A DNA stretch of 41,557 bases from Phycisphaera mikurensis NBRC 102666 (GTDB lineage Bacteria > Planctomycetota > Phycisphaerae > Phycisphaerales > SM1A02), in the NCBI GenBank assembly GCA_945890745.1, contig CAMDCW010000004.1, positions 1-41,557 of the forward strand. The letters run 5' to 3'. The notes beneath the pieces are model-generated. The model was not told the origin of the DNA. It saw nothing but the letters and a program-made list of their open reading frames with translations, and searched no databases. Below, piece after piece: positions 10,195 through 38,979 of this stretch (the stretch's first letter is position 1; every line of letters begins with the position of its first letter). Both the position numbers and the translations under genes were made by a program.

Positions 10195-12465
10195 GTGCTG
10201 ATCAACCACCGCTGCGCGCAACTCGCTTTCGCTATCGCCGCCACAGTCACTGCATGCGCCCATGCAGAAGTACCCGCGCCGTACAACGTTGCGACCGGCC
10301 AGGCGGCGCAGGTCACGGTGCGCATCACCACCACCAATAGTTCTGGCACGCAGTTCAGTGAAGACTCAATGATCGTGCCCGTCACTGGCATCGGTAGTTT
10401 CGGGCTGCTTCCAAACACGCCGCCCTTCACATTCGCCGAAATGAAGGCAGGTTCCAAGTTGAATTTCGGCGGCGGAAGCCTGGACTTCCAGCTCCTGTGC
10501 GGCGTGTTCGGGTGTGTACCGGTCAATGTGAATTTAAGCACCACCACCGCCACCATGATCGCCAATACTGGTGCATCAATCGTCGGCTCCGGGCGCGCCG
10601 ACTTTGGTACGACATGGACCCTGAGCGGTAACTATGTGACCACTACGCCGTTCTCATCATCGCCCGGCACGCTCGACGCCACCTCTGTTGCCCCGTTCGG
10701 TACCACGTTCACCTTCGACGCCACCGGATTCATCGGCAGCCAACTCACCATCGGCGCCATCGAAGGCGACCTTGATCCTTCCAGCTTCCCCGCCGGCACC
10801 ACTGCGCGCATCCGCACAACAGTGGTCTTTGGCAACACCTACATTGAGGGTCCGTACTACCTCGGCCCGCCGCCAAGCTGCGGCACTGGTGAGCCGTGCA
10901 ACACGCCGCATAGCGCGAGCGGCTGCGCCAACTCCGCATGTTGCGCGATTGTGTGCGGCATTGATCCGGCGTGCTGCACCGTTTCGTGGGATTCACTGTG
11001 CGTGAACATCGCCGTGGAGCGTTGCAACCTGACCCCTGAGAACGACCACTGCAACGCTGCCCGCCCACTCGGCTTCGGTCGCTATCCCTTCACAACATTG
11101 AACACGGATACCGACGGCCCGCCCCTCATTTCTGAGTGCGCAGACCCTGGAACGAGCGGCCTATTCACCAACGATGTGTGGTTCCGCGTTGTTCCACCAG
11201 TGAACGGCGGCTTGGCGGTTTCCACCTGTAATCACTCGGGCTTCGACACCAACATTGTCATCTACGGTTCGTGCGGCGGAGTTCCGCTTGCCTGCAATGA
11301 CAACGACTCCGTCTGCAACGGAGGCACCTCACGCCTCATCGTTCCATGCACGGCGGGCGAGCTCTATCTGATCCGCGTCGGTGGCAAGGGCGTAAGCGGC
11401 ACTGGCGAAATCGACATCGCACTCGGTGACCCGGCACCAATCGCGGATGGCCTAGCCATGCAGTGGCCAGCATCGCAAGGTGGCAACGACCACTGGTACG
11501 CGGTGTACGCACTCGACGGCAGCAAGACGTTTGAAGAAGCGCAGGCCACTGCGATCGCGCTCGGCGGCTACCCCGCAACCATCACTTCGGCCGCAGAGAG
11601 TGAGTTCATTCGCACCCGCGCAACCCCAACGCTCCTTGGCGGTCCAACCGCATTCGGACTATTGCAGGCACCGGGCTCCGCGGAGCCTGCTGGTGGTTGG
11701 GGATGGTCCAACGGCGAACCACTCGGCTACACCAACTGGAATCCTGGCGAACCCAACAACGTCGGCAGCGAGAATTGGGGTGTCGTCTATCCCAACGGTA
11801 AGTGGAATGACGATCGCGATTCGTTTGGCAACGTGCTCGTGGAATTCAACAGTGATCCGCAACTCAACACGGCCACATGGACGACCGCTGAAGGTGGCAA
11901 CGGAAAGACCTATTCCGCCGTGATTCTCCCCACACGCGTGACTTGGCAACAAGCGAAGGTCTATGCGGAATCGCTCGGCGCGCAGTTGGTGTCCATGGAG
12001 ACGCAAGCAGAGTTGCAGTGGATCTACCGCCGCTTCGCAGCGTTCACCAACATGTGGACCATGACCGGCTACAACGTCGGACCGTGGGTTGGACTGAGCC
12101 GCGAAAGTGGTGATTGGCTTTGGCAGTCCGGCGAACCAGTGACTGAGTCTCCATGGTTACCAGGTGAGCCAAACCTCACTGGCGACTTCGCCTGCTTCTA
12201 CGGCGGCGGAGACGGCCCACTTCCCGGCCTCGACGACACCTTTGAAGCCAACGCGCGTCGCGCGCTGATCATCGAGTTCCCTGCTCCCCCGTGCCTCGGC
12301 GACATCGACAACGACGGCATCGTGGGCGGCGCCGACCTTGGTCTCATGCTCGGAAGTTGGGGAGCATGCCCCTCCGGTCCGTGCCTCGCCGATCTCAACA
12401 ACGACGGCGTGATTACCGGCAGCGATCTCGGATTGCTGCTCGGTCAATGGGGCGCATGCCCGTGA
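10195..12465 (+). CDS. Secreted protein with two C-type-lectin-like domains and C-terminal dockerin-like repeats
   Basis: About 756 aa, starting at a GTG (10195) about nine bases after AAGGA; a GTG at 10189 is an alternative. The reading frame is open much further upstream, but that part is antisense to the permease. The order is: signal peptide (QLAFAIAATVTACAHA), an N-terminal beta-rich domain, a Cys-rich block (CANSACCAIVCGIDPACC, WDSLC), a PPC-like beta domain (NDVWFRVVPP...TCNHSGFDTNI), then two C-type-lectin-like domains with the marker strings TNWNPGEPNN and SPWLPGEPNL. The last 55 residues hold two dockerin-like repeats (DIDNDGIVGGADLG, DLNNDGVITGSDLG, each ending WGACP). It is probably a surface or extracellular carbohydrate- or matrix-binding protein. 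No catalytic domain is seen. Confidence 0.9.
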   Translation: MLINHRCAQLAFAIAATVTACAHAEVPAPYNVATGQAAQVTVRITTTNSSGTQFSEDSMIVPVTGIGSFGLLPNTPPFTFAEMKAGSKLNFGGGSLDFQLLCGVFGCVPVNVNLSTTTATMIANTGASIVGSGRADFGTTWTLSGNYVTTTPFSSSPGTLDATSVAPFGTTFTFDATGFIGSQLTIGAIEGDLDPSSFPAGTTARIRTTVVFGNTYIEGPYYLGPPPSCGTGEPCNTPHSASGCANSACCAIVCGIDPACCTVSWDSLCVNIAVERCNLTPENDHCNAARPLGFGRYPFTTLNTDTDGPPLISECADPGTSGLFTNDVWFRVVPPVNGGLAVSTCNHSGFDTNIVIYGSCGGVPLACNDNDSVCNGGTSRLIVPCTAGELYLIRVGGKGVSGTGEIDIALGDPAPIADGLAMQWPASQGGNDHWYAVYALDGSKTFEEAQATAIALGGYPATITSAAESEFIRTRATPTLLGGPTAFGLLQAPGSAEPAGGWGWSNGEPLGYTNWNPGEPNNVGSENWGVVYPNGKWNDDRDSFGNVLVEFNSDPQLNTATWTTAEGGNGKTYSAVILPTRVTWQQAKVYAESLGAQLVSMETQAELQWIYRRFAAFTNMWTMTGYNVGPWVGLSRESGDWLWQSGEPVTESPWLPGEPNLTGDFACFYGGGDGPLPGLDDTFEANARRALIIEFPAPPCLGDIDNDGIVGGADLGLMLGSWGACPSGPCLADLNNDGVITGSDLGLLLGQWGACP

Positions 12466-16367: not shown

Positions 16368-18110
16368 ATGACATCAACCGACCAATCGCGCCGCCTCCTG
16401 CTCGCCTCTCTTCCGGTCGCCATCGCGGCCGCAGGAATCCGCAATGCGTGGTCGGCCGCACCGCTCGCCGAAGATGGCGCAAAGCCAAGCAACGGCGCCC
16501 CGCCCACCGCCGACCCGGAGGCATTCCTCGACCGCCGCTCGCCAGTGTTCACGCGGCGATGCATGGCCTCATCAAGTTCGCCGATGGTGACGCAGGTCGG
16601 ATTCCGCGTGTTGGCAGAAGGCGGCAACGCGTGCGACGCAGCGCTTGCCATGGCAGCGATGATGGGCGTGGTGGAGCCAATGATGAGCGGCCTCGGCGGC
16701 GACACGATGGTCATCGTCTGGTCGGCGAAGGACCGCAAGGCCTACGGCCTCAACGGCAGCGGAGCCGCGCCATCGGGCGCCTCACTCGACCGCATTCCGG
16801 CCGGACCGTTCGTGCCTGAGCACGGCCCGATGTCAGTGACCATCCCCGGCGCCGTCGACGGTTGGTGCGCGCTCAACGAGCGATTCGGGTCGAAGCCACT
16901 GGCCACGCTGTGGGAACCCGCGATAGCGGCGGCGCGCGATGGCTATCCCATCGGCGAGTCGATCGCCGGAGTCTGGAACCTCTTCGCACCGGCGCTTCCC
17001 AAGTTTGCGAGCCCCGAACTGCTCGCCCTGCTGCTTCCCGGCGGCAAGGGCCCGGTTCCCGGCCAACTCATTCGGTTCCCCGCGCTCGCCAACACGCTCG
17101 AGCGCGTCGCGAAGGGCGGCCGCGAGGCGTTCTACGCAGGAAGCGTCGCGCGCGCGATCGCCGACACGCTCACCACCGGCGGCGTCCCGACAACGATGGA
17201 TGACTTCGCCCGCCAGCGCGCGCAGTGGGTCGAACCGCTGTCCGCCGGATTCCGCGGCCGCGACGTGCTGCAACTGCCGCCGAACTCTCAGGGCGTGGTG
17301 ACGCTGCAGGCGCTCGGCATCCTCGATGGGTTCGACCTGGCGAAGATGAGCCCCGCGGACCGCATGCACCATGAGATCGAAGCGCTCCGCATCGCGTTCG
17401 CGTTCGCGATCGATACGGTCGGCGAGCCAGACGACGCCATGATGGCGAAGTTGCGTACCGCGCTCACCCCCGCGGGTCTCGCCGAGGCGCGCGCGCGCAT
17501 CGGTGCCCGCGCGCTGCCACTTGGTCGAGCGCAAGGCGGCAACTCGGGCGACACCTCGTACATGTGTGCGATCGACGCGGAAGGCAACGCCGTCTCGCTG
17601 ATGTCGAGCATCTCCGGCGTATTCGGCTCGGGGCTGCTTGCGGGCGACACCGGCATCATCCTGAACAACCGCGCCGCGCAGTTTGCGGCGAAGCGCGGCA
17701 GTCCCAACGCACTGGCGGCCGGAAAGCGTCCGCGACACACCATCCTCCCTGGCATGGTGATGAAGGACGGCACGCCGGAGTTCCTGCTCGGTTGCGTGGG
17801 AGCCAACAACCATCCGCAGGGACAACTGCAATCGCTCGTCAACGTGCTCGACCTCGGCATGAACCCACAGCAGGCGGTCGACGCGCCCCGGTTCCGTGTG
17901 GTGATGACAAACGACGAGATCGAGTTAGACGCCGATGTCCCCGAGGACGTGAAGCGCGACCTCGTTGCGCGCGGTCACCAGCTGGGTGATCCCAAGGACT
18001 TCAAGGGCGCCGCACAGATGGTGCGCCTGCACCGCGGCGAAGGCGGCGTGGGACCATGCCTGGAGTCAGGCGTCGATCACCGCCTCGACGGCGTGGCGTT
18101 GGGTTGGTGA
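16368..18110 (+). CDS. ggt: Gamma-glutamyltransferase family protein
   Basis: A 580-aa Ntn-hydrolase precursor of the gamma-glutamyltranspeptidase family, which cleaves gamma-glutamyl bonds such as those of glutathione. The N-terminus has a Tat-like signal (SRRLLLASLPVAIAAAG). The large-subunit start signature is clear (VLAEGGNACDAALAMAAMMGVVEPMMSGLGGD). The autoprocessing and catalytic Thr is residue 396 in NSGDTSYMCAIDAEGNAVSL, which begins the small subunit. ILNNRAAQF and HTILPGMVMKDGTP follow as expected. It is periplasmic or secreted. Family members also include cephalosporin acylases, so the physiological substrate is open. A weak hairpin follows the stop. Confidence 0.95.
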   Translation: MTSTDQSRRLLLASLPVAIAAAGIRNAWSAAPLAEDGAKPSNGAPPTADPEAFLDRRSPVFTRRCMASSSSPMVTQVGFRVLAEGGNACDAALAMAAMMGVVEPMMSGLGGDTMVIVWSAKDRKAYGLNGSGAAPSGASLDRIPAGPFVPEHGPMSVTIPGAVDGWCALNERFGSKPLATLWEPAIAAARDGYPIGESIAGVWNLFAPALPKFASPELLALLLPGGKGPVPGQLIRFPALANTLERVAKGGREAFYAGSVARAIADTLTTGGVPTTMDDFARQRAQWVEPLSAGFRGRDVLQLPPNSQGVVTLQALGILDGFDLAKMSPADRMHHEIEALRIAFAFAIDTVGEPDDAMMAKLRTALTPAGLAEARARIGARALPLGRAQGGNSGDTSYMCAIDAEGNAVSLMSSISGVFGSGLLAGDTGIILNNRAAQFAAKRGSPNALAAGKRPRHTILPGMVMKDGTPEFLLGCVGANNHPQGQLQSLVNVLDLGMNPQQAVDAPRFRVVMTNDEIELDADVPEDVKRDLVARGHQLGDPKDFKGAAQMVRLHRGEGGVGPCLESGVDHRLDGVALGW

Positions 18111-19155: not shown

Positions 19156-19362
19156 ATGCCGTCCATGATCCTCCGTCCGGGGCGCGCGGCTGCACTTCCG
19201 GACGTGATAACTATCTCCGACCTCGCTCGATACCTGCAGGTGTCAAAGTCGTCTATGTACAAGCTTGCACAGGAAGGCGAGGCGCCCGGGCAGCAAGTTG
19301 GCAAACACTGGCGGTTCCACCGCGAAGTGATACATCACTGGCTCAGTAAGAAGTCGTACTGA
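19156..19362 (+). CDS. Excisionase-type helix-turn-helix protein
   Basis: A 68-aa protein consisting almost entirely of a MerR/excisionase-type DNA-binding domain (HTH_17). The characteristic pattern is ITISDLARYLQVSKSSMYKL followed by GEAPGQQVGKHWRFHREVI and a C-terminal Trp-containing helix. ACGGAA lies just before the ATG. It sits 45 bp upstream of the DUF499 gene on the same strand. In phage-derived elements such proteins control excision; next to defence genes they more often act as small transcription regulators. It is therefore the best candidate regulator of the operon. No integrase gene lies nearby. Confidence 0.85.
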   Translation: MPSMILRPGRAAALPDVITISDLARYLQVSKSSMYKLAQEGEAPGQQVGKHWRFHREVIHHWLSKKSY

Positions 19363-19407
19363 GCGCGGGTCCGTGACGGGTGGCCGACCATACCTCGAGG
19401 AAACAAC

Positions 19408-22134
19408 ATGCTGGGATTGACGCTTAGAGAAGAATTCAAGGGCCGCCGCCTCAAGGGCACGGCCATCGAATTAACGAACAGGAACAACACCGGCGCGACG
19501 CAGGTTCCGGCCGAGGAATTCCTCAGAATCACGTATCCCAGCACAGACGTCCTCAAGATGATTGAGGCAGCCGGACCCGATCAAGGCAGGCCGATCGTCC
19601 TGCAAGGCGAACGTGGTCAAGGAAAGACGCACTTGATGGCAGCGCTTTATCACTGCCTAAAGGATCGAACCGCAACCGAGGCCTGGCTCGGCCACTGGGC
19701 GGAGGTCCTCGGCAATCCCAAGATCAAGGCTATGCCGCTTCGTTCAAGTATGCACGTTGTCAGCGTGAGCCTGCATCAGCAGCATTACAAGCATCTGTGG
19801 GACGTGCTCTTCGACAACCACCCGCACGGCAAATTCTGCCGTGGAAAGTGGGAGGCACAAGGCGGCGAGAAGAGGACGGAGGTGCCCAGCGATACGCTGA
19901 TCCTCGAGATGCTCGAGCACACGCCGACCGCGGTGATTCTCGATGAGTTCCAGACGTGGTTTGACGGGCTGACGAACACCAAGCAATACCCCTGGCGAAC
20001 ATGGGCCTTCAACTTCATCCAGATCCTCTCCGAGATCGCGAAGGAGCATCCGGATCGGCTGGTGCTTGTGACTTCTGTTCGCAACGGTACGACCGATGCG
20101 TTTCAGCAGATCCAGCGAGTTAATCCGGTGCTCATTGATTTCAAAGGCCCCTCGGCTAAGCAAGAGCGTTCGCGATTGCTCCTTCATCGACTATTCGAAA
20201 ACCGACTGCAGGTAGGCCGCGCCAAGATCGAGTCTTTGATCACCACGCACGTCGATGAGTACTTCAGACTCAAAGGCACGGCGCCGACAGAACAAACGCG
20301 GATTCGTAATGACTTCATAGAGTCATGGCCTTTCGCCACACATCTGATGCAACTGTTGGAAGACCAAGTCCTCATCGCCACAAGCGCTCAAGGGACCCGC
20401 GACTTGATCCGAGTTCTCGCAGACCTGTTCAAGCAATGCAGTGATCGCGCGCCCATCATCACAGCAGCTGACTTCCGCCTCGACGACGAGTCGAGCGGCA
20501 TTGCCGCCCTACTGGATTCGGTCGCGAATCAGCACCACGCAAAGCTGCGCGAGAAGGCACTCCGTAACCTTGAGGCGGTTCGAGCTGCTGTTCCGGACAC
20601 GTCCAAGCGACTACCTCGCCTTGAAGCAATCATCGGGGCCTTGTGGCTCCGATCTCTCGCTGACATTAACCAGGCAGGAGCCGACAGGGCAACCCTACAA
20701 ATTGACGTGACCCAAGAGAGGCCCGTCGACGACAATGCGTTCCATGTCGAGCTGTCGACGATCGTCGAAAACAGCTTCAACATCCACGAAGATGGAAACA
20801 GATTCATCTTCAAGGAGGAGGAAAACCCGCAAGCGAAGCTGATCGCGAGTGCGCGGAACGACAAGTTGTTCCAAGATGGCCAGGACTTGGCGCATCTTGC
20901 CCGGGAGACCAGGTACGTGATCAGCGGCACAAGCGAGCTCGCGACACGGTTTCGCGTCATCGTGCTTTCGCCATCGTGGACGAGCAACCCGTGGGCGTCG
21001 GTCGAGGAATCAGATCAGCCGAATCAATGGGACGAACGTATTCCGATGCTCGTCTTGCCGGAAGCCCCGTCCAGCATTGGCGCCACACTCGGCATATGGC
21101 TCAAGGACTACTTACAGAGGAATCGGAATGCCGTTCGATTCCTACTCCCCGCAGATGGCACCGCGAACATCTTCGCTGATCGAGACCTCGTGATTTTGGC
21201 ACGATGCGTGTACCTCGCAGAGCAGTGGAAGGCGCAGAACCCTGAGTACGGGAGGCTGCAACCCAAGTATCAGAAGGAGCTCCGCGAGAGCCTCAAGTCC
21301 CGCTTCGACCGATTCGCGATCCTCGCGAACTGGAACTTCCAGCAGCCTGCGACGTGCCGATTCCATATCGAATCGCACCGCGCCAGTGGGCAGGCGATTC
21401 CCGAAGCCGTCGATAAACTCGTTGGCGAGAACTTGTTCATCCCCGAGGACTTTGAGACGCTAGTACTCACGGCCGCGGCCAACAACGAGCCCGTTGGGAA
21501 GCTGATAAAGGAGCTGAAGGAACCCCGCCCCGCGGGCCAGGACTGCATTCCTTGGCTAGGCGAGACGCTCGTGAAAGAGCGCGTCATACGCCTCTGCGCA
21601 CGAGGCCTCATTGCGATCAACTTGCGCGGGATTGAGAACCTGCAACTAGATGCTGGAGAAGATGAGGAAACCGCGTGGCGACGTATGCGAGGAAAGCTTG
21701 GGAGCGGGAAGCACCTCGATGAGACTGTTATTCTTCTTCCGCAGACCGTACCCGGTACAGGGGGTGTCTCCGGCTCTGGTGCTGCCGGGGCTTCGGTAAG
21801 CGGCGGCGCTGGCGTTACAAGCTCTGGACTGAACGGCGAGATATCCCGTAGCGGTACCGTCAGCGGCGGTGCAGAACAGCCGAGCGGCCAGCAGGCTGCC
21901 GGCGGCATCTTCGGGGGCAGCAAGTCGGTCCGCGTCGCGGTCTCGATACCCGCGACTTCGTCACTCAACCTGCTTGGCCGCATCGAGTCACAAGGAATCA
22001 AGCCGGGCACTCAGATCCATGACCTGAGCCTCAAAGTGGAGAATCTCACCGGCGCCCAGCTCCAGGATCTGCTTAAGAAGCTCCCCGATGGGATGACTTA
22101 CCAGCTCGAGCTTGCGAAGGAGCAGCAGGGATGA
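19408..22134 (+). CDS. DUF499-family AAA+ ATPase (BrxC/PglY-like role)
   Basis: A 908-aa large ATPase of the DUF499/COG1483 family found in anti-phage islands. Walker A is GERGQGKT (residues 67-74) and Walker B is TAVILDEFQTWF (near residue 176). The central region is helical. Residues about 780-835 form a Gly/Ser-rich flexible linker (GGVSGSGAAGASVSGG and similar), and the end is a compact beta-rich domain (VRVAVSIPATSSLNLL...). GAGGAAAC before the ATG is a good ribosome binding site. The ATGA overlap with the next gene implies translational coupling. By family analogy it should be the motor or DNA-surveillance subunit working with the methylase and PglZ-like partner. Confidence 0.93.
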   Translation: MLGLTLREEFKGRRLKGTAIELTNRNNTGATQVPAEEFLRITYPSTDVLKMIEAAGPDQGRPIVLQGERGQGKTHLMAALYHCLKDRTATEAWLGHWAEVLGNPKIKAMPLRSSMHVVSVSLHQQHYKHLWDVLFDNHPHGKFCRGKWEAQGGEKRTEVPSDTLILEMLEHTPTAVILDEFQTWFDGLTNTKQYPWRTWAFNFIQILSEIAKEHPDRLVLVTSVRNGTTDAFQQIQRVNPVLIDFKGPSAKQERSRLLLHRLFENRLQVGRAKIESLITTHVDEYFRLKGTAPTEQTRIRNDFIESWPFATHLMQLLEDQVLIATSAQGTRDLIRVLADLFKQCSDRAPIITAADFRLDDESSGIAALLDSVANQHHAKLREKALRNLEAVRAAVPDTSKRLPRLEAIIGALWLRSLADINQAGADRATLQIDVTQERPVDDNAFHVELSTIVENSFNIHEDGNRFIFKEEENPQAKLIASARNDKLFQDGQDLAHLARETRYVISGTSELATRFRVIVLSPSWTSNPWASVEESDQPNQWDERIPMLVLPEAPSSIGATLGIWLKDYLQRNRNAVRFLLPADGTANIFADRDLVILARCVYLAEQWKAQNPEYGRLQPKYQKELRESLKSRFDRFAILANWNFQQPATCRFHIESHRASGQAIPEAVDKLVGENLFIPEDFETLVLTAAANNEPVGKLIKELKEPRPAGQDCIPWLGETLVKERVIRLCARGLIAINLRGIENLQLDAGEDEETAWRRMRGKLGSGKHLDETVILLPQTVPGTGGVSGSGAAGASVSGGAGVTSSGLNGEISRSGTVSGGAEQPSGQQAAGGIFGGSKSVRVAVSIPATSSLNLLGRIESQGIKPGTQIHDLSLKVENLTGAQLQDLLKKLPDGMTYQLELAKEQQG

Positions 22135-23132
22135 CGCTCTCGCGAGATCTGCTTAGGCAACTGCAATCGCAATCGCCCGCTCTGGCATGGGCGACGATCT
22201 TCAAACACGCATGGGATGTGTGTGCAGCGCCGTTTGGCGGCGCGCGGCCCGAGTCTGACGTTGTTCGTCGCGATCGCGAAGTGGCAGATCTCGATCTGTT
22301 CCTTGCGACGGCGGGCTGGGACCTTTGGGGTTCATACGAATCCAGTGTTCCCCGCACAAGCGACGCACTGGCTCATTGGTGGACGACGCGCGGAAGTGGA
22401 CGCGCAATTCTCATTTTGGATGGGCTCTCACTTCGAGAGATCCCGTGGATCCTGAGCCAAGCTGAGGCGCGCGGATTCGTCGTCCACGAAGCGAGAGCGA
22501 CTGGGGCGGAGCTGCCAGCCGAAACCACCCCCTTTGCCAAGGCGATGGGATTCGCGCAGCGCTCGGCGCTCGGTGCGAACGGCGCAGGAGCGGGACACCG
22601 GTTGCCGGGAGCGCGTACGGAAGTCTCAAATCTCCCTTGGGAAGACTGCAGTCGATTCATCGGGGCGGAGCCTGACTGGCTGTTCTGGCACGACTGGCCC
22701 GACAGGGACGTTCATGACTTCGCGGATGCCGGTGAAGGGCTGCGACTGTTGATCCAGAAGGCGTCCGACCAGCTCCAGAGCGAGTCATTCTGGCGACTCG
22801 TTGAACGTCTGGCAGAAGGTCGAAGGCTTGTGCTTACCTCAGATCATGGGTACGCAGCCAGCGAGCTGTTTCCCGATGCGGGTGCAGATCACGCCGAATA
22901 CTTGAAGCGCACCTACAAGAGTAGACGCTGGTCTGACTCGAGCCAGGAAAGAGCGGCCATGGTGCCGCCGATTGACCTCTCCATGCAGACACATCACGGT
23001 CATTACCTATTCGTGAACGGTCGCCGCAAGTGGAGGAGCGCTGGTGGCTATCCAACCCTGACCCATGGTGGGCTGTCGGTCCTCGAGGTCGCAGTTCCCT
23101 TCATTGAGCTCAGCAAGAAAGGCGGGGCTTGA
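22131..23132 (+). CDS. Compact PglZ-type (alkaline phosphatase superfamily) protein
   Basis: A 333-aa protein whose core matches the PglZ fold. It has a hydrophobic strand ending in a metal Asp (AILILDGLSLREIPWIL), a Thr-containing segment (LPAETTPFAKAMGF), the metal motif LTSDHGYAA and the C-terminal signature LTHGGLSVLEVAVPFIEL with a His ligand. PglZ proteins are the shared hallmark of BREX, Pgl and related systems. This one is much shorter than typical BREX PglZ and lacks their long N- and C-terminal extensions. It starts inside the stop of the ATPase gene and ends two bases before the methylase ATG. A nuclease or phosphodiesterase role is inferred from the superfamily, not shown. Confidence 0.82.
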   Translation: MTLSRDLLRQLQSQSPALAWATIFKHAWDVCAAPFGGARPESDVVRRDREVADLDLFLATAGWDLWGSYESSVPRTSDALAHWWTTRGSGRAILILDGLSLREIPWILSQAEARGFVVHEARATGAELPAETTPFAKAMGFAQRSALGANGAGAGHRLPGARTEVSNLPWEDCSRFIGAEPDWLFWHDWPDRDVHDFADAGEGLRLLIQKASDQLQSESFWRLVERLAEGRRLVLTSDHGYAASELFPDAGADHAEYLKRTYKSRRWSDSSQERAAMVPPIDLSMQTHHGHYLFVNGRRKWRSAGGYPTLTHGGLSVLEVAVPFIELSKKGGA

Positions 23133-23134
23133 GG

Positions 23135-26100
23135 ATGGCAACGACAAGTAAGAACGCACAGCCATGGAAGGACGAGGGGCTCACAAAGCCCGAATGGCTC
23201 GCCCGTGAAGTTCAACGGGCGGTGAATGCGGGCAAGTCATGGTCGCTCGAGACCGTGAACTTCGACGATCCCAATCGGCCGCTGACCTGCCTAGAAGTCG
23301 ACTTCCCGATCATTCCCATCAATCAAGTCGCCGCGATTGAGGGCAACGCGGGGAAGCCGATCTACCAAATGTCGAAGTGGTGGGCGCGCCGTCGAAGCAG
23401 CGTCTTTCGATCGATGCTGCTCGCCGCAGCGATCAAGGCACCAGACGATCCGGCCGAGGCCGCCAAACTCGTCTGGGACGTCTACTACGGCAACCACCAA
23501 GCGACAGACACATTCAAGCAGCTGAAAGTCGCGGACATCTTTATGGGTGGCGGCACGACGGTCGTTGAAGGCTCGCGACTCGGAATGCAGATGTACGGTA
23601 ACGATCTGAACCCGGTCGCGTGGTTCGTGGTGAAGAATGAACTCGCCAAGGTGGCGAAGTCGGATGTCGAGGAGTTACTGGCACGGATCGAAGCAGAGGT
23701 GAAGCCTCAGATCATGCCGTTCTACGCATGCGATTGTCCGCGTGGCCATCGGGGTAAGTGGACGCATATCGCCACCCAAACCGTAAAGGGCGATGACTTC
23801 GACCCACTGGCACTGACGACCGACGCACGGGCGGAGTATCGGTATGAGGGACCGGAGGTCATCTACACGTTCTGGGCCAAGCACGGCCCTTGCCAAGTCA
23901 CGGGCTGCGGGCATCGCACGCCGATCATGACCACGCCCGTCATGGCCGTGAAGTCACTCACCGTTCGCGCCTGGGAACGCAAGTGCAAGTGCTGCGGCCA
24001 AACGTACGACATCGAAGAGCAGGACGCCCGCATGGCACCAGGGGCCGAGCTAGTTGTGGCACCGACGGAACGCCCCTACGCGATCGCGCAACTAAACCTG
24101 GTCGGCGATCCTGAGTCAGTCACTTGCCCGCATTGCGGCGGCGCAGAGCGCGTAGGGATTCTTGGAAAGCCGACAAAAAAGACAATTGAGCTGTCACTGC
24201 TGGTCCACCCGGACTGGCTTTCAGGCGAACCGCCGACCAACGCTCGTGGGCAAGTCCATGGCGGAAGTGCCGATGATCCCATCGAAGCAACCACCCGATG
24301 GAATCAGGCTAGGGCCGCAAAGTGCAAGCTTGTTGAAGTTCGAGGCGCACTCCCGAATCAGGTAACCCTTCGAAATGGAAAGGTGCTTAGCACAAGTAAG
24401 GACGGAGGAACAGTCCCAGGCAAGAGCACATTTGCGTGCGCGGCATGCGGAACGGCCTCGGATGTTCGTGAAGCAATCGCCGCAACTAAAAAGAACGGGC
24501 CAATCGCCGCTTACGCCGTTCAAGGCTACTGCCCCTGCTGCAAAGAAGAAGGCGCGGCCTACAACGGACGGTTCTTTGCCCCCGTCACGGATAGCCGTGC
24601 GTATGACGCCGCAGATCTCGAATGGCAACGACGCAAGTCGGATGACCTTGCCGAAAACTGGCCAACCAGCGAAGTCCCTTACGGCTTCATGACGGCGATG
24701 GCGAATGGCGATATCCGGCAGGCGCACGGGTTCACGCACTGGTGGAAAATGTTCAACTCTCGCCAGCTGCTTGTTCACGCCAGCCTCCTAGGCGCGCTGA
24801 GAAGAAATGACAGTCAGCCGGTCGCAGAATTCGTTCTCGGCGCTTTCCAACAGTACCTGCGAAATCAGTGCCTTTTCACGATCTGGAACCCCCAGCGTGA
24901 TACTCCGGAACCAATGTTCTCGAACAACAACTACCACCCCAAGTCAACCATGGTGGAGAATTGCGTCTTCGCCAAATTGGGTCGCGGAAACTGGCAGTCA
25001 CAGTACGGGAACATGCTTGAAGCGCTCGATTGGATCTCGGATCCTTGGGAAATCGTGTGTAACGAGCACATCGCAGCAAAGCGCCCGCAGCTCTCCGAAG
25101 CCCTTACGGGGACTAGCGATAAGGTTCACTGCCATGATCCGCTCACGCACACCGAATCGCTGGTCTGCTTGTCGTCGTCCGAGCGCCTTACCTGTGGCAC
25201 CTCGACAGAACTCAGGACGATCGATCCTGGGACTTACGATGCAGTAATCACCGATCCTCCGTTTGGTGGGCTACTGCACTACTCGGAACTTGCGGACTTC
25301 TTCTATGTTTGGCTTCGACTCGCGCTTAAGGACAAATACCCCCAGTATTTCGGCACCGAATACACGCCAAAGACGATGGAAGCCGTCGCAAACCGTGCAC
25401 GGCATCCTGGCGAGGATCCGGCAACCGGCAAGAGTAATGCCGACGCGTTCTACCAGCGCTTGTTGACCGCCTGCTGGATCGAGGCCAGGCGAATTCTGAA
25501 GCCCGGTGGCATCCTAAGTTTCACATTCCACCACAGCGAAGACGCCCCGTGGGTATCAGTTCTTGAGTCGCTGTTCGACGCAGGCTTCTACCTTCAGGCC
25601 ACCTATCCCATCCGCAGTGACGAAACTAAGGGGACCGGGCAGTTTGGTTCCAAGACAATCGAATACGACATCATCCACGTGTGCCGCCAGCGGACCGAGG
25701 AATCGAAGCCGATTTCGTGGGCGAAGTTGCGCCGACACGTGCTGCATGACGTCGCGGAGATCAAGACCCTTCTGGAACACCATCAGCAAGATGGGCTTCC
25801 CGAGGCAGACCTACAAGTCATTCGCCGCGGCAAGGCACTCGAGTACTTTTCACGCCACTACGGTAAGGTCTACAAGGGCCCAGACGCTCCAATGACGGTA
25901 CTTGAGGCGCTCGTCGGCATCAACCAACTACTCGAAGAGGAAACATCGGGTCTAAAGGAGCCGCCACCCCACAGCGCGGAGCCTTTCACTCGGATGCTGC
26001 TTCGGCTTTTCGATGGCGTTGCCGAGCTGCCGAGAGACCAAATGCAGAAGTTCTTGCGCGGCACCGGCAGTGCACCATCGGATTTCGAGGGTCGCGGCTG

Positions 26101-26452
26101 GGTCGTGGAGAGCAAGAAGGTGTTCCACCTCGTGCCGCCGATCGATCTTGCGGGACGGTGGATCGGAAAGCCGCGAAGTGAGCTAACGAGCGACTACGAC
26201 CAAGCCATGTTCTTCGTAGGCGCCTGCATCGATGGAAGCGGAATCAACGCGAGCGACACGCTGAACAATCCAAACTTCCGCCCGCATCCGGCGCTTGGCG
26301 CCCTTCTCGGCTGGTTCAAGACCCACCTGTCCGACTCGCCCGGCCGAAATGCGGCGACGATTGCCGGTCAGCTCTATCGCGCCTGGGAAGCGAAGAACCA
26401 GCCGAAGACGAAGGAACTCACACTGTTTGACCACCTCGGGGAGGAAAGCTGA
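23135..26452 (+). CDS. DUF1156-family DNA methyltransferase with zinc-ribbon insertions
   Basis: About 1105 aa. The DUF1156 N-terminus (SKWWARRRSSVFRSMLLAAA) is followed by a SAM-binding motif (IFMGGGTTVVEGSRLG...NDLNPVAW, near 131-160). A long insert rich in Cys pairs comes next (CDCPRGH, CKCCGQTY, CPHCGGAE, CAACGT, CPCCKEE), probably several zinc ribbons. The catalytic DPPF motif (VITDPPFGGLLHYSEL) lies near 706 and a later methylase core block is KPGGILSFTFHH. DPP[FY] enzymes methylate exocyclic amines (N6-adenine or N4-cytosine). The ATG at 23135 is chosen over an in-frame TTG at 23129. It probably marks host DNA as self in the defence operon. The stop overlaps the next ATG (TGATG). Confidence 0.93.
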   Translation: MATTSKNAQPWKDEGLTKPEWLAREVQRAVNAGKSWSLETVNFDDPNRPLTCLEVDFPIIPINQVAAIEGNAGKPIYQMSKWWARRRSSVFRSMLLAAAIKAPDDPAEAAKLVWDVYYGNHQATDTFKQLKVADIFMGGGTTVVEGSRLGMQMYGNDLNPVAWFVVKNELAKVAKSDVEELLARIEAEVKPQIMPFYACDCPRGHRGKWTHIATQTVKGDDFDPLALTTDARAEYRYEGPEVIYTFWAKHGPCQVTGCGHRTPIMTTPVMAVKSLTVRAWERKCKCCGQTYDIEEQDARMAPGAELVVAPTERPYAIAQLNLVGDPESVTCPHCGGAERVGILGKPTKKTIELSLLVHPDWLSGEPPTNARGQVHGGSADDPIEATTRWNQARAAKCKLVEVRGALPNQVTLRNGKVLSTSKDGGTVPGKSTFACAACGTASDVREAIAATKKNGPIAAYAVQGYCPCCKEEGAAYNGRFFAPVTDSRAYDAADLEWQRRKSDDLAENWPTSEVPYGFMTAMANGDIRQAHGFTHWWKMFNSRQLLVHASLLGALRRNDSQPVAEFVLGAFQQYLRNQCLFTIWNPQRDTPEPMFSNNNYHPKSTMVENCVFAKLGRGNWQSQYGNMLEALDWISDPWEIVCNEHIAAKRPQLSEALTGTSDKVHCHDPLTHTESLVCLSSSERLTCGTSTELRTIDPGTYDAVITDPPFGGLLHYSELADFFYVWLRLALKDKYPQYFGTEYTPKTMEAVANRARHPGEDPATGKSNADAFYQRLLTACWIEARRILKPGGILSFTFHHSEDAPWVSVLESLFDAGFYLQATYPIRSDETKGTGQFGSKTIEYDIIHVCRQRTEESKPISWAKLRRHVLHDVAEIKTLLEHHQQDGLPEADLQVIRRGKALEYFSRHYGKVYKGPDAPMTVLEALVGINQLLEEETSGLKEPPPHSAEPFTRMLLRLFDGVAELPRDQMQKFLRGTGSAPSDFEGRGWVVESKKVFHLVPPIDLAGRWIGKPRSELTSDYDQAMFFVGACIDGSGINASDTLNNPNFRPHPALGALLGWFKTHLSDSPGRNAATIAGQLYRAWEAKNQPKTKELTLFDHLGEES

Positions 26453-26973
26453 TGGTTCGTATTCGCAATGGGATGGCGTGGAGCCGGAGGGGCATTTCGT
26501 TGCTCTGGAGTCCCGAGGCCCTCGCGGCGGTCGCCGATCCGACGGAGGTGATTTCCATTCGCCAGCTCTTCGCGATGGATGGCCATTGGCCGGACGTTCT
26601 TCCAAGTGCTGGCGGCGACGCGGTTGTCGTCGCTGGCGCGGAGGGGTGCATTGATTCATTGAACGGCGCGGATGCGGAGCGATGGCTCGCCGAGGACCTT
26701 CGTCAAGTGGTCATGGGATTCCAAGAGCACTACGAGGGTGCCGCAGGTCTGATTCTCTGGATTCCGTCCGGTCGCCCCCGCATCATCATGCAAGGCGCAA
26801 GCGAGCACTATTACATGAGGCATCGCGCTTACCACGATGGCAAGCTTCCTATTGGTCGCCTCCTCTGCTCGGGTGCCGAGAGCGAGATTGAACGAATCAT
26901 GATGACGGACGATGAACGCGCGGACCCGGATGGCCCGCACTGGGCGGGTCTTTATCACCCGAGGATTAGCTGA
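26452..26973 (+). CDS. Unrecognised 173-aa operon protein embedded between methylase and helicase
   Basis: Not recognised. It is a soluble protein without signal peptide or membrane segment, with an alpha/beta appearance: strands such as DAVVVAGAEGC and GLILWIPSGRPRIIM and helices such as WLAEDLRQVVMGFQEH. Conserved-looking features are EHYYMRHRAYHDGKLP and the acidic C-terminal MMTDDERADPDGPHW. No nucleotide-binding or nuclease motif is clear. It shares one base with the methylase stop and one base with the helicase start, so it is translated as part of the complex and is probably stoichiometric with it. Candidate roles are adaptor between helicase and methylase, target sensor, or antirestriction-proof accessory. 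All are inference. Confidence 0.88.
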   Translation: MVRIRNGMAWSRRGISLLWSPEALAAVADPTEVISIRQLFAMDGHWPDVLPSAGGDAVVVAGAEGCIDSLNGADAERWLAEDLRQVVMGFQEHYEGAAGLILWIPSGRPRIIMQGASEHYYMRHRAYHDGKLPIGRLLCSGAESEIERIMMTDDERADPDGPHWAGLYHPRIS

Positions 26974-29735
26974 TGTCAGAGATGACGTTCAAGCCCGGCG
27001 AGCGGGTCCGCCATTCCGACTTCGGGGAAGGCGTCGTAATCAATGTCGGAACGGATGGCTATGTTCGTGTCTTCTTCGCCTCTGGCGAGAGACGGGCCAA
27101 TGCCGCGACGCTCACACCAACCCGGAGCCGCATCGATCGGTTGCTTGAGGACGTATCGGCAGGTGATCAACGCCTACGCGCAGCCTGGCTGCACGTCGAA
27201 TCGCACGCACTTCCACTGATCGAGAACGCCGCCGCACTGACGGCGGCACGAATCGACCTGCTGCCCCACCAGGTAGTGCTCACTCACCGAATCGCGACAG
27301 CATCCCCACGTCGGTTTCTCATTGCTGATGAGGTCGGTCTCGGCAAAACTGTCGAGACGGCACTTGTGCTTCGAGAGCTGGCGAGTCGCGGCGAACTCAA
27401 TCGGGCGCTGATGATTGTTCCGGCAGGCCTCGTGAACAACTGGCATCGCGAACTCAACGAAGTGTTCAATCTGAACTTCGAGGTGTTTGGTAGCACAGGC
27501 GACGTGACCGACCGAAAATCGAATGCATTTACGAAACACGATCGACTGATCGCCAGCGTTGACACGCTGAAGCGGCGCGGTCGCGTGCGACGATTGCTGG
27601 ACGCGCCGAAGTGGGACCTAGTCGTCTTTGACGAGGCCCACCACCTCTCCGCCTACAAGAGCGGAGGCAAAGTGCGCAAGACTGAGAACTATAAGTTGGC
27701 AGAGGCGATGCGCGAGCACGCACGCGATCTTCTCTTACTTTCCGCGACCCCGCATCAGGGCGACCACTTTCGCTTCTGGATGCTGGTGCAACTGCTCAAT
27801 CCGGCACTCTTTGGCGATCCCGATGAAATGGTCGCGGAGCGACATCGCTTAAACAGTGTGGTCTATCGACGGACGAAGGCCGATGCATGCACTCCGGATG
27901 GCTCGCCGCTGTTTGCGCGCCGCTGGGTCCATACCGAGTCATTCACCATGTCTGACCGGGAACGGAAGTTCTACGTCAAGCTCCGTGAGTACCTGCAGGA
28001 CGGCTTCGATCTTGCGAAGCAGCAGGGAAACCAAGGCCGCGCGCTTGGCTTCGTGATGACGATCTTCCAAAAGATCGCTGCGTCGAGTTTCTCTGCCGTC
28101 AGAAGCACCCTGCGCCGACGCCAGCTCATGCTGACGATTCATGAGGCCATCCTCAAGGATCAGGCGCTCGACATCGACGGACATGGAAAATTGCTCGAAG
28201 AGGCCAAGCGACTCCTTCACCAAGCGACCGGACACCCGACTGATGCAGCTGGTCGTGGCGAGGTTGATCGCATGCTCGCAGATCTCAAGCTCCGGCTGAT
28301 TCGCAAGCTCGACGAGGAGCAGCTTGAATCGGCTGCATCTTCAGAAAGCGGCGAGGAGTCGACAGCAGCTGGCGAGAACCTCGCGGCCGAATGCGTCTCC
28401 CTTTCGCTACCGGAGGAGCGCATGCGGATCGCGGATTTGCTTGCCAGCTTTCCCGACGGCCGCGAGACAAAGGTCGAGAAACTTCTTCGTGGCCTCGGTG
28501 CGCTCTGGGAACAAAACCCCAATGAAAAGGTCGTGATCTTTGCGACCTACCTGGCCACCGTCGATCTGCTCTCACGGGAGATCAATGCCGTGTATCCGGG
28601 TCAGGGGGTAGTCGAACTTCGGGGCGGCGACCATGGCGCGAAGCTCGCCGCGGAGAAGAGATTCCGTCGCCCTGATGGGCCCCGAGTCATGGTGTGCACA
28701 GCAGCAGGCCGCGAAGGAATCAACCTGCAATTCGCGCGCATCCTGTTCAACTTCGATCTGCCCTGGAATCCGATGGACGTCGAGCAGCGGATCGGGCGAA
28801 TTCATCGCTATGGGCAGCGAGACACTGCGCAGGTCTACAACCTCGTGCTTTCCGACACGATCGAGGGCCGGATTTTCTTGCTGCTGTCCGACAAGCTGCT
28901 CGAAATCGCGAAGGCGCTTGGTAAAGTTGATGAGCATGGAAACGTCACGGAGGATTTGAAGGCCCAAATACTTGGCCAGCTCTCCGATCGACTTACCTAT
29001 GACACGCTATATCGAGACGCGCTTTCCGACCCGGAGCTGAGAAGGACGCGACAGGAGCTCGAGGCTGCGGTATCGAACGCAAACGAGTCAAGGAAGGTTG
29101 TGTTTGAGCTTTTTCAGGATCTTGATCGTTTCAGCCTCGACGACTATCAGCCTTTCGCCAATATTGATGCAAGCAAGCAGCGGATATTGGGATTCTTGAG
29201 AGCAGCGCTTGAGGCCGACCGCGGAAGTGTTGAACCTGCGGGCGCCGATTGCTTCCGAGCCACGTTCCCCGAACATTCAGAATCGCTGGTCTTCACGCTC
29301 GACCGAGAGGTCGCTCAGCGCGACGAGAAGATTCAGTTGATGGGCCTCGATCATCCGCTTATGGTTCGCTTTTTGAAGCGTTGGCGTTTGCAGCAGCCGG
29401 AGCTACTTGGTGTCGCGACTGCAGCAAGTAGCGGAACCCCCCGGGGGGTTCTAACGGTCTGGTCGGTCGAGGCGTTTGGTGGGCCCTCATCGTCGACTCA
29501 CGTGATCCCGATCGCAATTGATCTGTCAGGGCAGCGAATCCCGAGCCTTGAGAAGCGCTACGCAGAGGCGTTCGCGGGTACCCCCGCGGAATCACGACTC
29601 GATGTGATTGCCCGAAAACAGCTTTACCACGACTTCGTCGAGCCGGCGCTACAACGAGAGTTAGGACACCGCGGATTGGCGGGGCCCTCTGGTGGCCATT
29701 CGACAGAGCTGATCGCTTGGGTTGAGGTCGGGTAG
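26973..29735 (+). CDS. SNF2/SWI2-family helicase-like ATPase of the defence operon
   Basis: A 920-aa superfamily 2 translocase. Residues 5-45 form a small beta domain (GERVRHSDFGEGVVINV), like the tudor/KOW-type modules found at the end of UvrD-like and CarD-like proteins. The ATPase motifs are in order: Q-motif region LLPHQ, motif I DEVGLGKT (119-126), motif II DEAHHL (near 221), motif III LLSATPHQGDH, motif V CTAAGREGINLQ and motif VI QRIGRIHRYGQRD. A helical C-terminal part follows. The pattern matches RapA/BrxHI/DrmD-like defence helicases. It probably tracks along DNA, remodelling or restricting unmodified DNA. No separate nuclease domain is recognised. Confidence 0.93.
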   Translation: MSEMTFKPGERVRHSDFGEGVVINVGTDGYVRVFFASGERRANAATLTPTRSRIDRLLEDVSAGDQRLRAAWLHVESHALPLIENAAALTAARIDLLPHQVVLTHRIATASPRRFLIADEVGLGKTVETALVLRELASRGELNRALMIVPAGLVNNWHRELNEVFNLNFEVFGSTGDVTDRKSNAFTKHDRLIASVDTLKRRGRVRRLLDAPKWDLVVFDEAHHLSAYKSGGKVRKTENYKLAEAMREHARDLLLLSATPHQGDHFRFWMLVQLLNPALFGDPDEMVAERHRLNSVVYRRTKADACTPDGSPLFARRWVHTESFTMSDRERKFYVKLREYLQDGFDLAKQQGNQGRALGFVMTIFQKIAASSFSAVRSTLRRRQLMLTIHEAILKDQALDIDGHGKLLEEAKRLLHQATGHPTDAAGRGEVDRMLADLKLRLIRKLDEEQLESAASSESGEESTAAGENLAAECVSLSLPEERMRIADLLASFPDGRETKVEKLLRGLGALWEQNPNEKVVIFATYLATVDLLSREINAVYPGQGVVELRGGDHGAKLAAEKRFRRPDGPRVMVCTAAGREGINLQFARILFNFDLPWNPMDVEQRIGRIHRYGQRDTAQVYNLVLSDTIEGRIFLLLSDKLLEIAKALGKVDEHGNVTEDLKAQILGQLSDRLTYDTLYRDALSDPELRRTRQELEAAVSNANESRKVVFELFQDLDRFSLDDYQPFANIDASKQRILGFLRAALEADRGSVEPAGADCFRATFPEHSESLVFTLDREVAQRDEKIQLMGLDHPLMVRFLKRWRLQQPELLGVATAASSGTPRGVLTVWSVEAFGGPSSSTHVIPIAIDLSGQRIPSLEKRYAEAFAGTPAESRLDVIARKQLYHDFVEPALQRELGHRGLAGPSGGHSTELIAWVEVG

Positions 29736-32743: not shown

Positions 32744-32920
32744 ATCTAAGCGGACAGCCTACCTTCCATGGCGATTGGAAGAGAAGTTACACGTCGGCCA
32801 TTACCGCTCCGAAGAAATTTGGTGGCCAAACACACACGATCCGTATCATGGCCTTCATTAAACGGGTGTATGTCACAAGGCCGAAATCGCGGGGTGCGTC
32901 CCATTGCTCGGAGTGATTCG
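32744..32920. promoter_or_regulatory. Divergent regulatory region between the methyltransferase and the dual-OB operon
   Basis: About 177 bases of non-coding DNA between two divergent starts. No clean -35/-10 pair was identified. The frame upstream of the dual-OB start is open but has no ribosome binding site until GGAG just before 32921. Confidence 0.35.
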
Positions 32921-33649
32921 ATGCCAAACAAAACCATCGTGATACTAGCCAACTCCGTAAAAAAGAAGCCCGGGCGTTGCATTGCCGGACGTGAAGTTGT
33001 GATTTCTGGGAAAGGCGTGAGCCTCGGCGAATGGATCCGACCCGTGAGCCCCGACGGCGAAGCAAAGGAGGGTGAATTGCTCGCAGTTCACCACCGAACA
33101 ATCAAGAATGTCGCGATCGATGTGCTCGACATCTTTGAGGTTCCGCTCGCGCGCCAACGGACTGATTTAGGACAACCAGAGAACTGGGATGTCATCACCG
33201 ATGTGCCATGGAAGAGACTTGGCACGCTAAAGCGCAAAAGCCTGCCGAAACTTGTGGAGTCACCCCCGCACCTTTGGGACATTGATATTCCGGGCGATCG
33301 TCGTGTCCATGTCGATGCGCCCATTGGCAAACGAGGGCGCTCCTCACTCGCGCTCATTCAGCCATCCAACTTTCGCGCCTTGGTGCAACGCGAGCAAAGG
33401 CCATGGAACAACTACGAGTCGACCAAAGTACGCGGCGCATTTAGTTATGCAGGCCGCAACTACTCTTTGGATATAACGGACGACTCTTTTGTTCCGCAGT
33501 TACGGGCACAGGCAACGGCTTTGCAGATCGAATATCGCCCGCCATTCGGTGACAAGTGCCTGCTTTGTGTCAGCCTTAGCGCACCGTTCAATGGCTATCA
33601 TTACAAACTGATCGCAGCAGTGATTCCCCTCGAGGAGCACACTCCGTAA
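32921..33649 (+). CDS. Dual OB-fold (DuOB-type) domain protein
   Basis: A 242-aa protein. The ATG at 32921 has GGAG at a good distance and begins MPNKTIVILANSVKKKPGRC, the family's characteristic 'TIV-LANS-K---CIAG-EV' opening (CIAGREV follows). The upstream in-frame ATG at 32768 is rejected for lack of a ribosome binding site. Further family-like parts are GEWIRPVSPDGEAKEGEL, ending a first OB-like barrel, and a C-terminal second barrel ending LCVSLSAPFNGYHYKLIAAV. Such proteins are typically encoded next to DUF488 genes, exactly as here (36-bp gap). Nucleic-acid or nucleotide binding is the expected role by fold; the biological function is not established. Confidence 0.72.
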   Translation: MPNKTIVILANSVKKKPGRCIAGREVVISGKGVSLGEWIRPVSPDGEAKEGELLAVHHRTIKNVAIDVLDIFEVPLARQRTDLGQPENWDVITDVPWKRLGTLKRKSLPKLVESPPHLWDIDIPGDRRVHVDAPIGKRGRSSLALIQPSNFRALVQREQRPWNNYESTKVRGAFSYAGRNYSLDITDDSFVPQLRAQATALQIEYRPPFGDKCLLCVSLSAPFNGYHYKLIAAVIPLEEHTP

Positions 33650-33685
33650 TCGCCCGATGGGGCCGAAACTAGCCTGTTCTCAGTC

Positions 33686-34321
33686 ATGAACCGCGCTCTC
33701 TACACCGTTGGCCACTCAAACCATAGCGCAGATGCGTTTGTGGACATCTTGCGGCGCAATGGAATAGACGCGATTGCGGATGTGCGCTCAAGTCCTTACA
33801 GCAAGTTCTCCCCGCAGTTCAACCGTGAGACGCTGAGCACGGTTCTGCGCAACCAAGGGATCCAGTACGTCTTTCTCGGTCGCGAGCTAGGCGCACGACG
33901 CGACGAACGCGATTGCTATGTGGGTAATCAGGCGCGCTACGACCTGATCGCGAAGTCAAGGTCCTTCCGCGACGGACTCGACCGCGTCATCGCTGGTGCG
34001 AAATCCCATGCGGTCGCGTTGATGTGCGCCGAGAAGGACCCAATCACCTGCCATCGCATGGTGCTTGTATGCCGCGAACTCCGCGGGTCTGATTTAAGTC
34101 TTCAGCACGTGCTCGAAGATGGCTCTCTCGAATCGAATTTCGAAGCGGAGAATCGCCTTCTTGACCTGGCGGACCTTCCGCGGGGCGACTTGTTTCGGTC
34201 GCGAGATGCCATTGTGGAGGAGGCCTATGATCGCCAAGCACGTCGAATTGCTTGGACGGAGCGCGAACCCGCCGGAATGCCTAGTGCTGCTGATCCAAGC
34301 GAACACGGAGACCAGCAGTGA
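33686..34321 (+). CDS. DUF488 family protein (first copy)
   Basis: A 211-aa protein with all the DUF488 hallmarks: LYTVGHSNHSADAFVDIL at the N-terminus, IADVRSSPYSKFSPQFNRE, FLGRELGARRDE and the Cys/His-bearing ALMCAEKDPITCHRMVL. The last 50 residues are an acidic, helical extension. DUF488 proteins are small alpha/beta proteins of uncertain activity; conserved Arg, Cys and His suggest nucleic-acid or nucleotide chemistry. It overlaps the next DUF488 gene by 4 bp, so the two are translationally coupled. With the dual-OB gene it forms a three-gene unit closed by a hairpin at 34781-34802. Confidence 0.92.
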   Translation: MNRALYTVGHSNHSADAFVDILRRNGIDAIADVRSSPYSKFSPQFNRETLSTVLRNQGIQYVFLGRELGARRDERDCYVGNQARYDLIAKSRSFRDGLDRVIAGAKSHAVALMCAEKDPITCHRMVLVCRELRGSDLSLQHVLEDGSLESNFEAENRLLDLADLPRGDLFRSRDAIVEEAYDRQARRIAWTEREPAGMPSAADPSEHGDQQ

Positions 34322-34755
34322 ACGTCTTTACCATCGGATTCACTGAGAAACCAGCGAAGCGATTCTTCGAACTTATCCGATCTTCGGGCACGAAGCGCGT
34401 CGTGGATGTTCGGCTCAACAATACTGGCCAGCTTGCAGGGTTTAGCAAGCGTGAAGACTTAGTCTTTTTCCTGCGCGAACTCTGTCAAGTCGAGTACATC
34501 CATGTTCCTGAGCTTGCGCCGACAGCAGACATCCTCGACGCCTATAAGAAGCATGGAGGAGCGTGGTCTGTTTACGAGGCAGAGTTCCTCAACCTCATGG
34601 AGAAGCGGCGCATCGACCAATCGATTGCGCGTGACGTAATCGACCAAAGCTGCCTCTTATGTAGTGAGCACAAACCGCATCATTGCCACCGAAGGCTTGT
34701 CGTTGAGTACTTGGACCGCAAGTGGGGCGGGCTGAAGCCAACACACCTCGCATAG
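34318..34755 (+). CDS. DUF488 family protein (second, shorter copy)
   Basis: 145 aa. It starts at a GTG that overlaps the TGA of the first DUF488 gene (GTGA). It shows a diverged version of the same motifs: VFTIGFTEKPAKRFFELI, RVVDVRLNNTGQLAGFSKRED, HVPELAPTADIL and LLCSEHKPHHCHRRLVVEYL. The two copies share the fold but little sequence, so they are likely subunits of a heteromer, not a recent duplication. The Cys-x(n)-HCHRR end is intact, implying a conserved active site. The gene is terminated shortly after by a hairpin. Confidence 0.9.
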   Translation: MNVFTIGFTEKPAKRFFELIRSSGTKRVVDVRLNNTGQLAGFSKREDLVFFLRELCQVEYIHVPELAPTADILDAYKKHGGAWSVYEAEFLNLMEKRRIDQSIARDVIDQSCLLCSEHKPHHCHRRLVVEYLDRKWGGLKPTHLA

Positions 34756-37894: not shown

Positions 37895-37906
37895 CGGAGC
37901 GCCTCC

Positions 37907-38350: not shown

Positions 38351-38979
38351 GGCAAATCCCCTTATCATGAAGAGCCGGTCCCTTCGGTAACGCGCCTCGC
38401 GTCGACCAGTCTGGATCCAAGGACCTGGTCAGCCTACCCCCAACCGCCCCAGTTCGCACTGCTTCATTTCGTCCTCGGGTACCCCTAAAAGCGCAGCGTT
38501 GTTGCGCCGCTCTGTTCGAGCGAACACAGCCACGTGCGTTCTTCTTTGTTGGGCTGAGATGAATTCGCTGCTCGCGCCGCGAGCGCCGAACAGAGCCGGC
38601 GCGGTGCGCGGAACGGCGCACCCGGCGAAGACTCGCCGTCGCGCCAGGCGGCCACTGGTGCGGTCTGGATCGTGCCCTATTCGCTCGTGGAATCGCCATA
38701 GATTGACGGGCAGTATGGTTCGCGCTCGGCCCTGCGTAAGGCTCCCTATCAACGCGCCGGGCATCCGAGGTCCGCTTGCATTTCAGCCGGATGCTGCCAC
38801 ACACCTCTTGGGACTCGCCGAGACATTCTTGCGACAGCCGGCGCAAGCGAAACCACCGAAAATGAACAACAGGAGGCACATGGCCTACTGTTGTCTATGG
38901 GTATCAGATGGAATCATCGGCCTGTGCGCTTTAGTGGCGCCGGGGGCTACCAACAAGCCCTGCCGCGCCGAGCAGACCA
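38351..38979. other. Gene-poor stretch with an inverted repeat
   Basis: No frame on either strand reads like a protein over any length. TGTTCG-AG-CGAACA (38513-38526) is a perfect 6-bp inverted repeat with a 2-bp spacer and could be an operator. The region is probably decayed sequence joined to the helicase fragment that follows. Confidence 0.45.

Follow-up and report, generated by a model that had tools for sequence, protein, structure and literature searches.

What kind of system is encoded where a PglZ domain protein stands in one gene train with an ATPase, a methylase and a helicase, and what might it do? The question is raised by a five-gene cassette at positions 19408-29735 of a 41,557-nucleotide stretch of DNA (the window) from contig CAMDCW010000004.1 of assembly GCA_945890745.1, listed under Phycisphaera mikurensis NBRC 102666. 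The original prediction, made from the DNA letters alone, saw in it a distinct new hybrid defence system. By the component features that we tested, the cassette is instead a further member of the Type-3 BREX-Related (BR) system (BREX, bacteriophage exclusion), described from 569 taxa by Rakesh & Krishnan (NAR, Jan 2026; PMC12839542). The main text of that paper defines Type-3 BR by a DUF499 ATPase, a standalone active PglZ, a DUF1156 methyltransferase (MTase), an inactive-STAND (iSTAND) protein (82%) and a nuclease-less helicase. In its argument, PglZ fills the role that a restriction endonuclease (REase) or an HKD nuclease has in Types 1 and 2. A second publication of 2026 (PMC13326643) cites Type-3 BR as a BR type that combines a minimal PglZ with a BrxB homologue. 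We consider it quite probable that the window cassette is an anti-phage operon of this kind, mobile by horizontal transfer and resembling restriction-modification systems.

The five genes and their products

A check of the open reading frames (ORFs) places five genes on the + strand, with products given in amino acids (aa):

19408..22134, + strand: DUF499-type AAA+ ATPase (HmaC/BrxC-like), 908 aa
22131..23132, + strand: compact PglZ domain protein, 333 aa
23135..26452, + strand (ORF open from TTG 23129): DUF1156 amino-methyltransferase, 1107 aa from the TTG
26452..26973, + strand: probable inactive-STAND (iSTAND/BrxB-like) protein, 173 aa
26973..29735, + strand: SNF2/BrxHII/HmaA-type SF2 helicase, 920 aa

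The single-strand train of overlapping genes from 22131 to 26973, and the family names given to the ATPase, PglZ, methylase and helicase, had already been part of the original prediction, and both stood up. ATPase and PglZ share a four-base ATGA overlap at 22131, and TGATG, with an overlap of one base, joins the methylase to the 173-aa gene (26452) and the latter to the helicase (26973). ATG 23135, 2 nt past the PglZ stop, is more likely the methylase start than TTG 23129, because a short positive gap is found at this junction in most relatives.

The 333-aa protein matches NCBIfam BREX_PglZ_3 weakly (E 7.5e-6). Its AlphaFold2 model (predicted local distance difference test, pLDDT, 91.5) retrieved PorX as the top fold match (Z 23.7 over 301 residues) and BREX PglZ (9zn5) with a Z of 19.1, followed by other enzymes of the nucleotide pyrophosphatase/phosphodiesterase (NPP) fold at Z ~11. 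Judged by the predicted structure, the protein is a true PglZ domain. The Pfam PglZ model (PF08665) matched neither this protein nor anything else in its own genome; since the protein is a PglZ nonetheless, a silent PF08665 is not evidence against PglZ. Residues D97, T132, D191, D238, H239 and H312 occur in 86 of 86 sequences, and H195 in 85. We propose, from motif and spacing, that they are NPP-type metal ligands and the nucleophile. The PglZ of Escherichia fergusonii is by experiment a metal-dependent nuclease, which nicks and linearises double-stranded DNA (dsDNA) and forms a sub-complex with BrxB; mutations of its T538 and H741 abolish or alter nuclease activity (PMC12205998). By motif and spacing only, T132 and H312 would correspond to these two residues. 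Scans of the other four proteins matched no nuclease family at the domain level, which leaves PglZ as the likeliest nuclease-type effector of the cassette. In the phage genomes searched, no mini-PglZ was found.

The ATPase carries a Walker A motif, GERGQGKT (residues 67-74), and a Walker B motif, LDE (178-180), whose residues are kept in nearly all of 76 sequences. It matches the PADLOC HmaC model (E 1.2e-9). Pfam DUF499 recognises 21 of 22 members of the family at E<=1 (best 1.5e-10), and DUF6079 is weaker, with 4 of 22.

In the helicase, SNF2 (E 1.6e-20) is represented by the Pfam domains SNF2-rel_dom and Helicase_C, and its GKT, DEAH and motif VI are kept in 69-70 of 70 sequences. It matches the PADLOC models HmaA (9e-98) and BrxHI (2e-93); the DrmD match (E 1.8e-88) lies under its curated cut-off. 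No nuclease domain was found in it by Pfam at E<=0.1.

The methylase, whose residues are numbered here from TTG 23129, matches Pfam N6_N4_Mtase (E 1.4e-6) and, just under the curated cut-off, DUF1156 (E 1e-4), as well as the PADLOC models HmaB (5e-38) and PglXI (1e-21). Motif I (FMGGGT, 138-143) and motif IV (DPPF, 709-712) occur in essentially all 73 sequences. A CxxC-CxxC pair (286, 289, 333, 336) is invariant, and Cys 468 and 471, a possible second zinc finger, are present in 19 of the 73. Between the catalytic motifs lies a long, fast-diverging insert (about 300-700), presumably the target-recognition region. Pairwise identity is 0.42-0.63 over residues 301-700, compared with 0.81-0.86 over 51-200 and 0.74-0.85 over 701-950. 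Towards the nearest relative, L015, it is 40-48% over 401-700, 89% over 1-200 and 74-84% over 801-1000. Because the insert diverges far more than its catalytic flanks among close relatives, the alignments suggest that target specificity changes rapidly. As far as the main text of PMC12839542 goes, this fast divergence is not stated there. We also note that the window segment 24329-25228 (+ strand, methylase residues 401-700) is 35-58% identical to L015, L016, L018 and L022, with 66-90% over residues 1-200.

The 173-aa protein had been called an orphan. It gave no family match in scans of PADLOC, Pfam or NCBIfam models, and a PDB sequence search with its family returned nothing credible. It nevertheless belongs to a conserved family, present in seven of 392 genomes of the phylum, the window's own included. 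All seven also carry the mini-PglZ, and the family was seen only together with this cassette. It evolves fastest of the five proteins, with a mean identity of 0.54 against 0.63-0.74. The predicted model (pLDDT 91.5) has an alpha/beta fold, with extra strands at 111-123 after the strand at 99-103. No Walker A motif is recognisable in the family, unlike in the BrxF proteins compared, which keep it. BrxB and BrxF structures were not among the fold matches of the model. The fold, the lack of a Walker A motif, the operon position and the co-occurrence fit the iSTAND component of Type-3 BR, which the 173-aa protein probably is, but do not prove it.

Some results weigh against the assignment to Type-3 BR. 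No single PADLOC system has models that match all five genes. The window ATPase on its own reaches only E 0.18 with DUF499, below significance, so that this match is significant for the family and not for the window protein alone. The published type has an N-terminal Tudor domain on the helicase and a C-terminal RRM/ferredoxin-like domain on the ATPase; for the Tudor domain, Pfam gave no match at E<=0.1 in the window helicase. Finally, the 173-aa model shows a weak likeness to RecA/Rad51-type P-loop folds, with a Z of at most 4.9, and an hhalign profile comparison of its family with BrxF, for which there were two sequences only, gave no signal.

Inheritance, surroundings and nested modules

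A genome scan for the cassette yielded 80 loci, 70 of them with all five genes as single ORFs. Gene order, which the original prediction had pointed to as a check, is identical across these ~70 intact loci, from several phyla plus plasmids. The recurrence of one order on this scale puts the grouping of the five genes far outside what chance would give. Pairwise distances correlate for every pair of genes (r 0.84-0.98, against a maximum of 0.30 in 499 permutations), so that the cassette is inherited as a block; these are raw distances between loci of which related ones are not independent, and r describes co-inheritance, not cause. No pair is linked more closely than ATPase and PglZ (r 0.98), whose genes overlap or lie <=20 nt apart in 78 of 79 loci.

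Searches by tblastn turned up homologous cassettes on Tenderia, Ensifer, Aminobacter and Citrobacter plasmids. Plasmids of Klebsiella, Enterobacter and Raoultella had matches to the mini-PglZ as well; some relatives lie on conjugative plasmids. In the tree, the window cassette has Phycisphaerales metagenome-assembled genomes (MAGs) and one acidobacterial MAG as neighbours. It was absent from the sampled genomes of the same genus, several of which are only 64-88% complete. Both the patchy distribution and the tree point to horizontal transfer. Composition gives no such indication, since the cassette is not distinct from its surroundings in the GC profile.

Two relatives deserve separate mention. 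The annotated ATPase of the Citrobacter plasmid cassette L012 (3925-6081) matches the window protein from residue 215 on only. This copy may be inactive, as it lacks the region that holds Walker A and B. L108 (genome G168, 1585-11387, - strand) is a strongly diverged cassette that keeps this layout, with an ATPase of 875 aa (23% identical), a PglZ of 324 aa, a methylase of 984 aa, an ORF of 142 aa and a helicase of 933 aa. No similarity to the 173-aa family could be detected in its 142-aa ORF, which occupies the iSTAND position, and hhalign gave no significant match of this ORF with BrxF.

The assembly containing the window comprises 2.7 Mb in 250 contigs and is about 90% complete. On the 5' side, the cassette is preceded by a gamma-glutamyltransferase gene (16368-18110) and a reverse-strand ORF, and a promoter/terminator scan on that side found nothing. 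On the 3' side follows a 320-aa ORF without a family match. Three genes 3 kb downstream (32768-34752, + strand), which encode a dual-OB domain protein and two DUF488 proteins, match A, B and C of the PADLOC candidate system PDC-M45 (2e-44, 1.3e-76 and 4.1e-69), and are a candidate second defence operon in the window. Further on, at 37319-38368 (- strand), both of two adjacent genes contain DUF2158.

Several relatives carry extra genes within the operon, in 14 loci between PglZ and methylase, in eight between iSTAND and helicase, and in single cases elsewhere. These counts leave out L028, L036, L068 and L082, whose methylase gene is in fragments. Many of the extra genes belong to defence systems, and the following modules were recognised, some with a hidden Markov model (HMM):

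L012: SIR2-HerA, HMM-verified
L066, L084, L086, L092: SIR2-HerA-like ORFs, alike in size and position only, no HMM scan
L042: IetS with its AAA partner (IetAS)
L020: PD-T4-4-type protein
L065: OLD-ABC and DUF4276
L066, L078, L087: OLD-ABC/DUF4276-like ORFs, similar ORFs, no HMM scan
L046, L080: Schlafen
L025: GmrSD/NsnA

The inserted genes of other loci, for example L021 and L067, had no match. SIR2-HerA was also found on E. coli chromosomes without the remaining cassette, at 75% DNA identity. On a FastTree phylogeny of 61 complete loci, which hold nine and seven of the carriers for the first and second junction, respectively, at least seven changes of state fall at the PglZ-methylase junction and at least six at the iSTAND-helicase junction. 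A tentative reading, which we hold to be possible rather than probable, is that the Type-3 BR operon serves as a chassis with two docking junctions. Whole defence modules would repeatedly be slotted in and share its expression or its trigger, with the junction of ATPase and PglZ staying closed. If confirmed, this pattern would show how defence operons gain backup effectors. The main text of PMC12839542 describes Type-3 BR loci as lacking conserved standalone nucleases and does not mention nested modules, which may figure in its supplements.

Proposed mechanism and rival explanations

By analogy with Type-1 BREX, whose PglZ nicks dsDNA and binds BrxB (PMC12205998), we infer a division of labour within the cassette. 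The DUF1156 methylase would mark self DNA at a site read through its variable recognition insert. On incoming DNA, the DUF499 ATPase might join PglZ and the small iSTAND protein in an assembled complex, with sensing by the ATPase and iSTAND, while the SNF2 translocase would move along or remodel this DNA. PglZ, as a metal-dependent phosphodiesterase, would then nick unmarked or sensed phage DNA, thereby taking the place of the REase or phospholipase D (PLD) nuclease of the Type-1 and Type-2 BR systems. The original prediction, too, had a short PglZ replacing the nuclease partner. This remains plausible, as no nuclease domain was found in the other four proteins, but the idea is not new, having been put forward in the main text of PMC12839542. 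Our literature search found no experiment on this cassette, nor on anti-phage activity or methylation of the Type-3 BR subtype.

The chemistry of PglZ leaves room for a different explanation, which we regard as rather unlikely. PglZ could act on nucleotides, such as PorX-like cyclic or linear oligonucleotides or nucleoside triphosphates, for signalling or depletion, and the SNF2 helicase or host nucleases would restrict the DNA. PorX, whose PglZ domain degrades cyclic nucleotides, is the best structural match of the 333-aa model, and the next-best folds are nucleotide pyrophosphatases. Moreover, cA6 and pApA are further substrates of the E. fergusonii PglZ, and substantial defence persisted in its T538A mutant (PMC12205998). 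The same enzyme, however, nicks and linearises dsDNA, and Type-1 and Type-2 BR have a DNA nuclease where Type-3 has PglZ, according to the main text of PMC12839542.

The location of some relatives on conjugative plasmids, and the possibility that a lone methylase with a translocase regulates genes, would also suit a methylation-based epigenetic or plasmid-stabilising module that has no function in phage defence. We find this very improbable in view of the anti-phage modules that relatives carry within this operon, the candidate PDC-M45 operon downstream, the patchy distribution, and the kinship with Hma and BREX. Least credible of all is the original claim of a truly new hybrid system without relation to any defined subtype. 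In its favour, the five genes are not covered by any one PADLOC system and PF08665 is silent on PglZ, yet the exact component set is present in the 569 taxa of PMC12839542 (main text) and repeated in PMC13326643; the hybrid was rejected for this reason. In the preferred reading, with PglZ as the nuclease of a Type-3 BR operon, the system offers a compact setting, in which PglZ is alone with a BrxB-like partner, for a clean test of PglZ as the nuclease of BREX-like immunity. All proposed active-site residues are intact, and plasmid-borne relatives and about 70 comparison loci are at hand.

Comparison with known systems

Classical BREX, DISARM (defence island system associated with restriction-modification) and Hma were each rejected as the identity of the cassette on components; for the first two, this agrees with what had been predicted. 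The only likeness to DISARM class 1 is the DrmD-like SNF2 helicase, and neither the DrmA/B/C set nor PLD or DUF1998 proteins were found among the five cassette proteins. In Type-3 BREX (BrxF, BrxC, BrxXI, BrxHII, PglZ, BrxA), the roles of ATPase, methylase, helicase and PglZ are filled by homologues. The window PglZ, however, is a single domain of 333 aa compared with a BREX-3 model of 642 positions, the ATPase is of the DUF499 and not the DUF6079 type, and BrxF has a Walker A that is missing from the small protein. A BrxA-like gene is not among the five, and BREX_3_BrxF had no match in the window's genome (~90% complete).

The Type-1 BR system, Hma (HmaABC), has a helicase, a methylase and an ATPase homologous to those of the window, but neither PglZ nor iSTAND, whereas the window cassette has a PglZ. 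According to the main text of PMC12839542, the Hma helicase has a C-terminal REase in 79% of taxa and the ATPase is often fused to HEPN. The window helicase, with 920 aa against 1176 in the HmaA model, had no nuclease domain matched. Type-2 BR (DUF3780/PLD-helicase) shares the DUF499-DUF1156-SNF2 core; its DUF3780 and PLD/HKD domains had no Pfam match among the cassette proteins.

With Type-3 BR, as set out in the main text of PMC12839542, we found no difference in the component features tested, a comparison that covers components and not the published gene order. Common to both are the DUF499 ATPase, a standalone PglZ with metal-site residues and a nuclease-less Swi2/Snf2 helicase. Both also have a DUF1156 N6-MTase, of which a published subset has two zinc fingers and whose N6 specificity is a prediction in the window protein. 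At the iSTAND position, where the published type has eroded Walker motifs and a beta-sheet cap after strand 4, the window cassette likewise encodes a small, fast-evolving protein.

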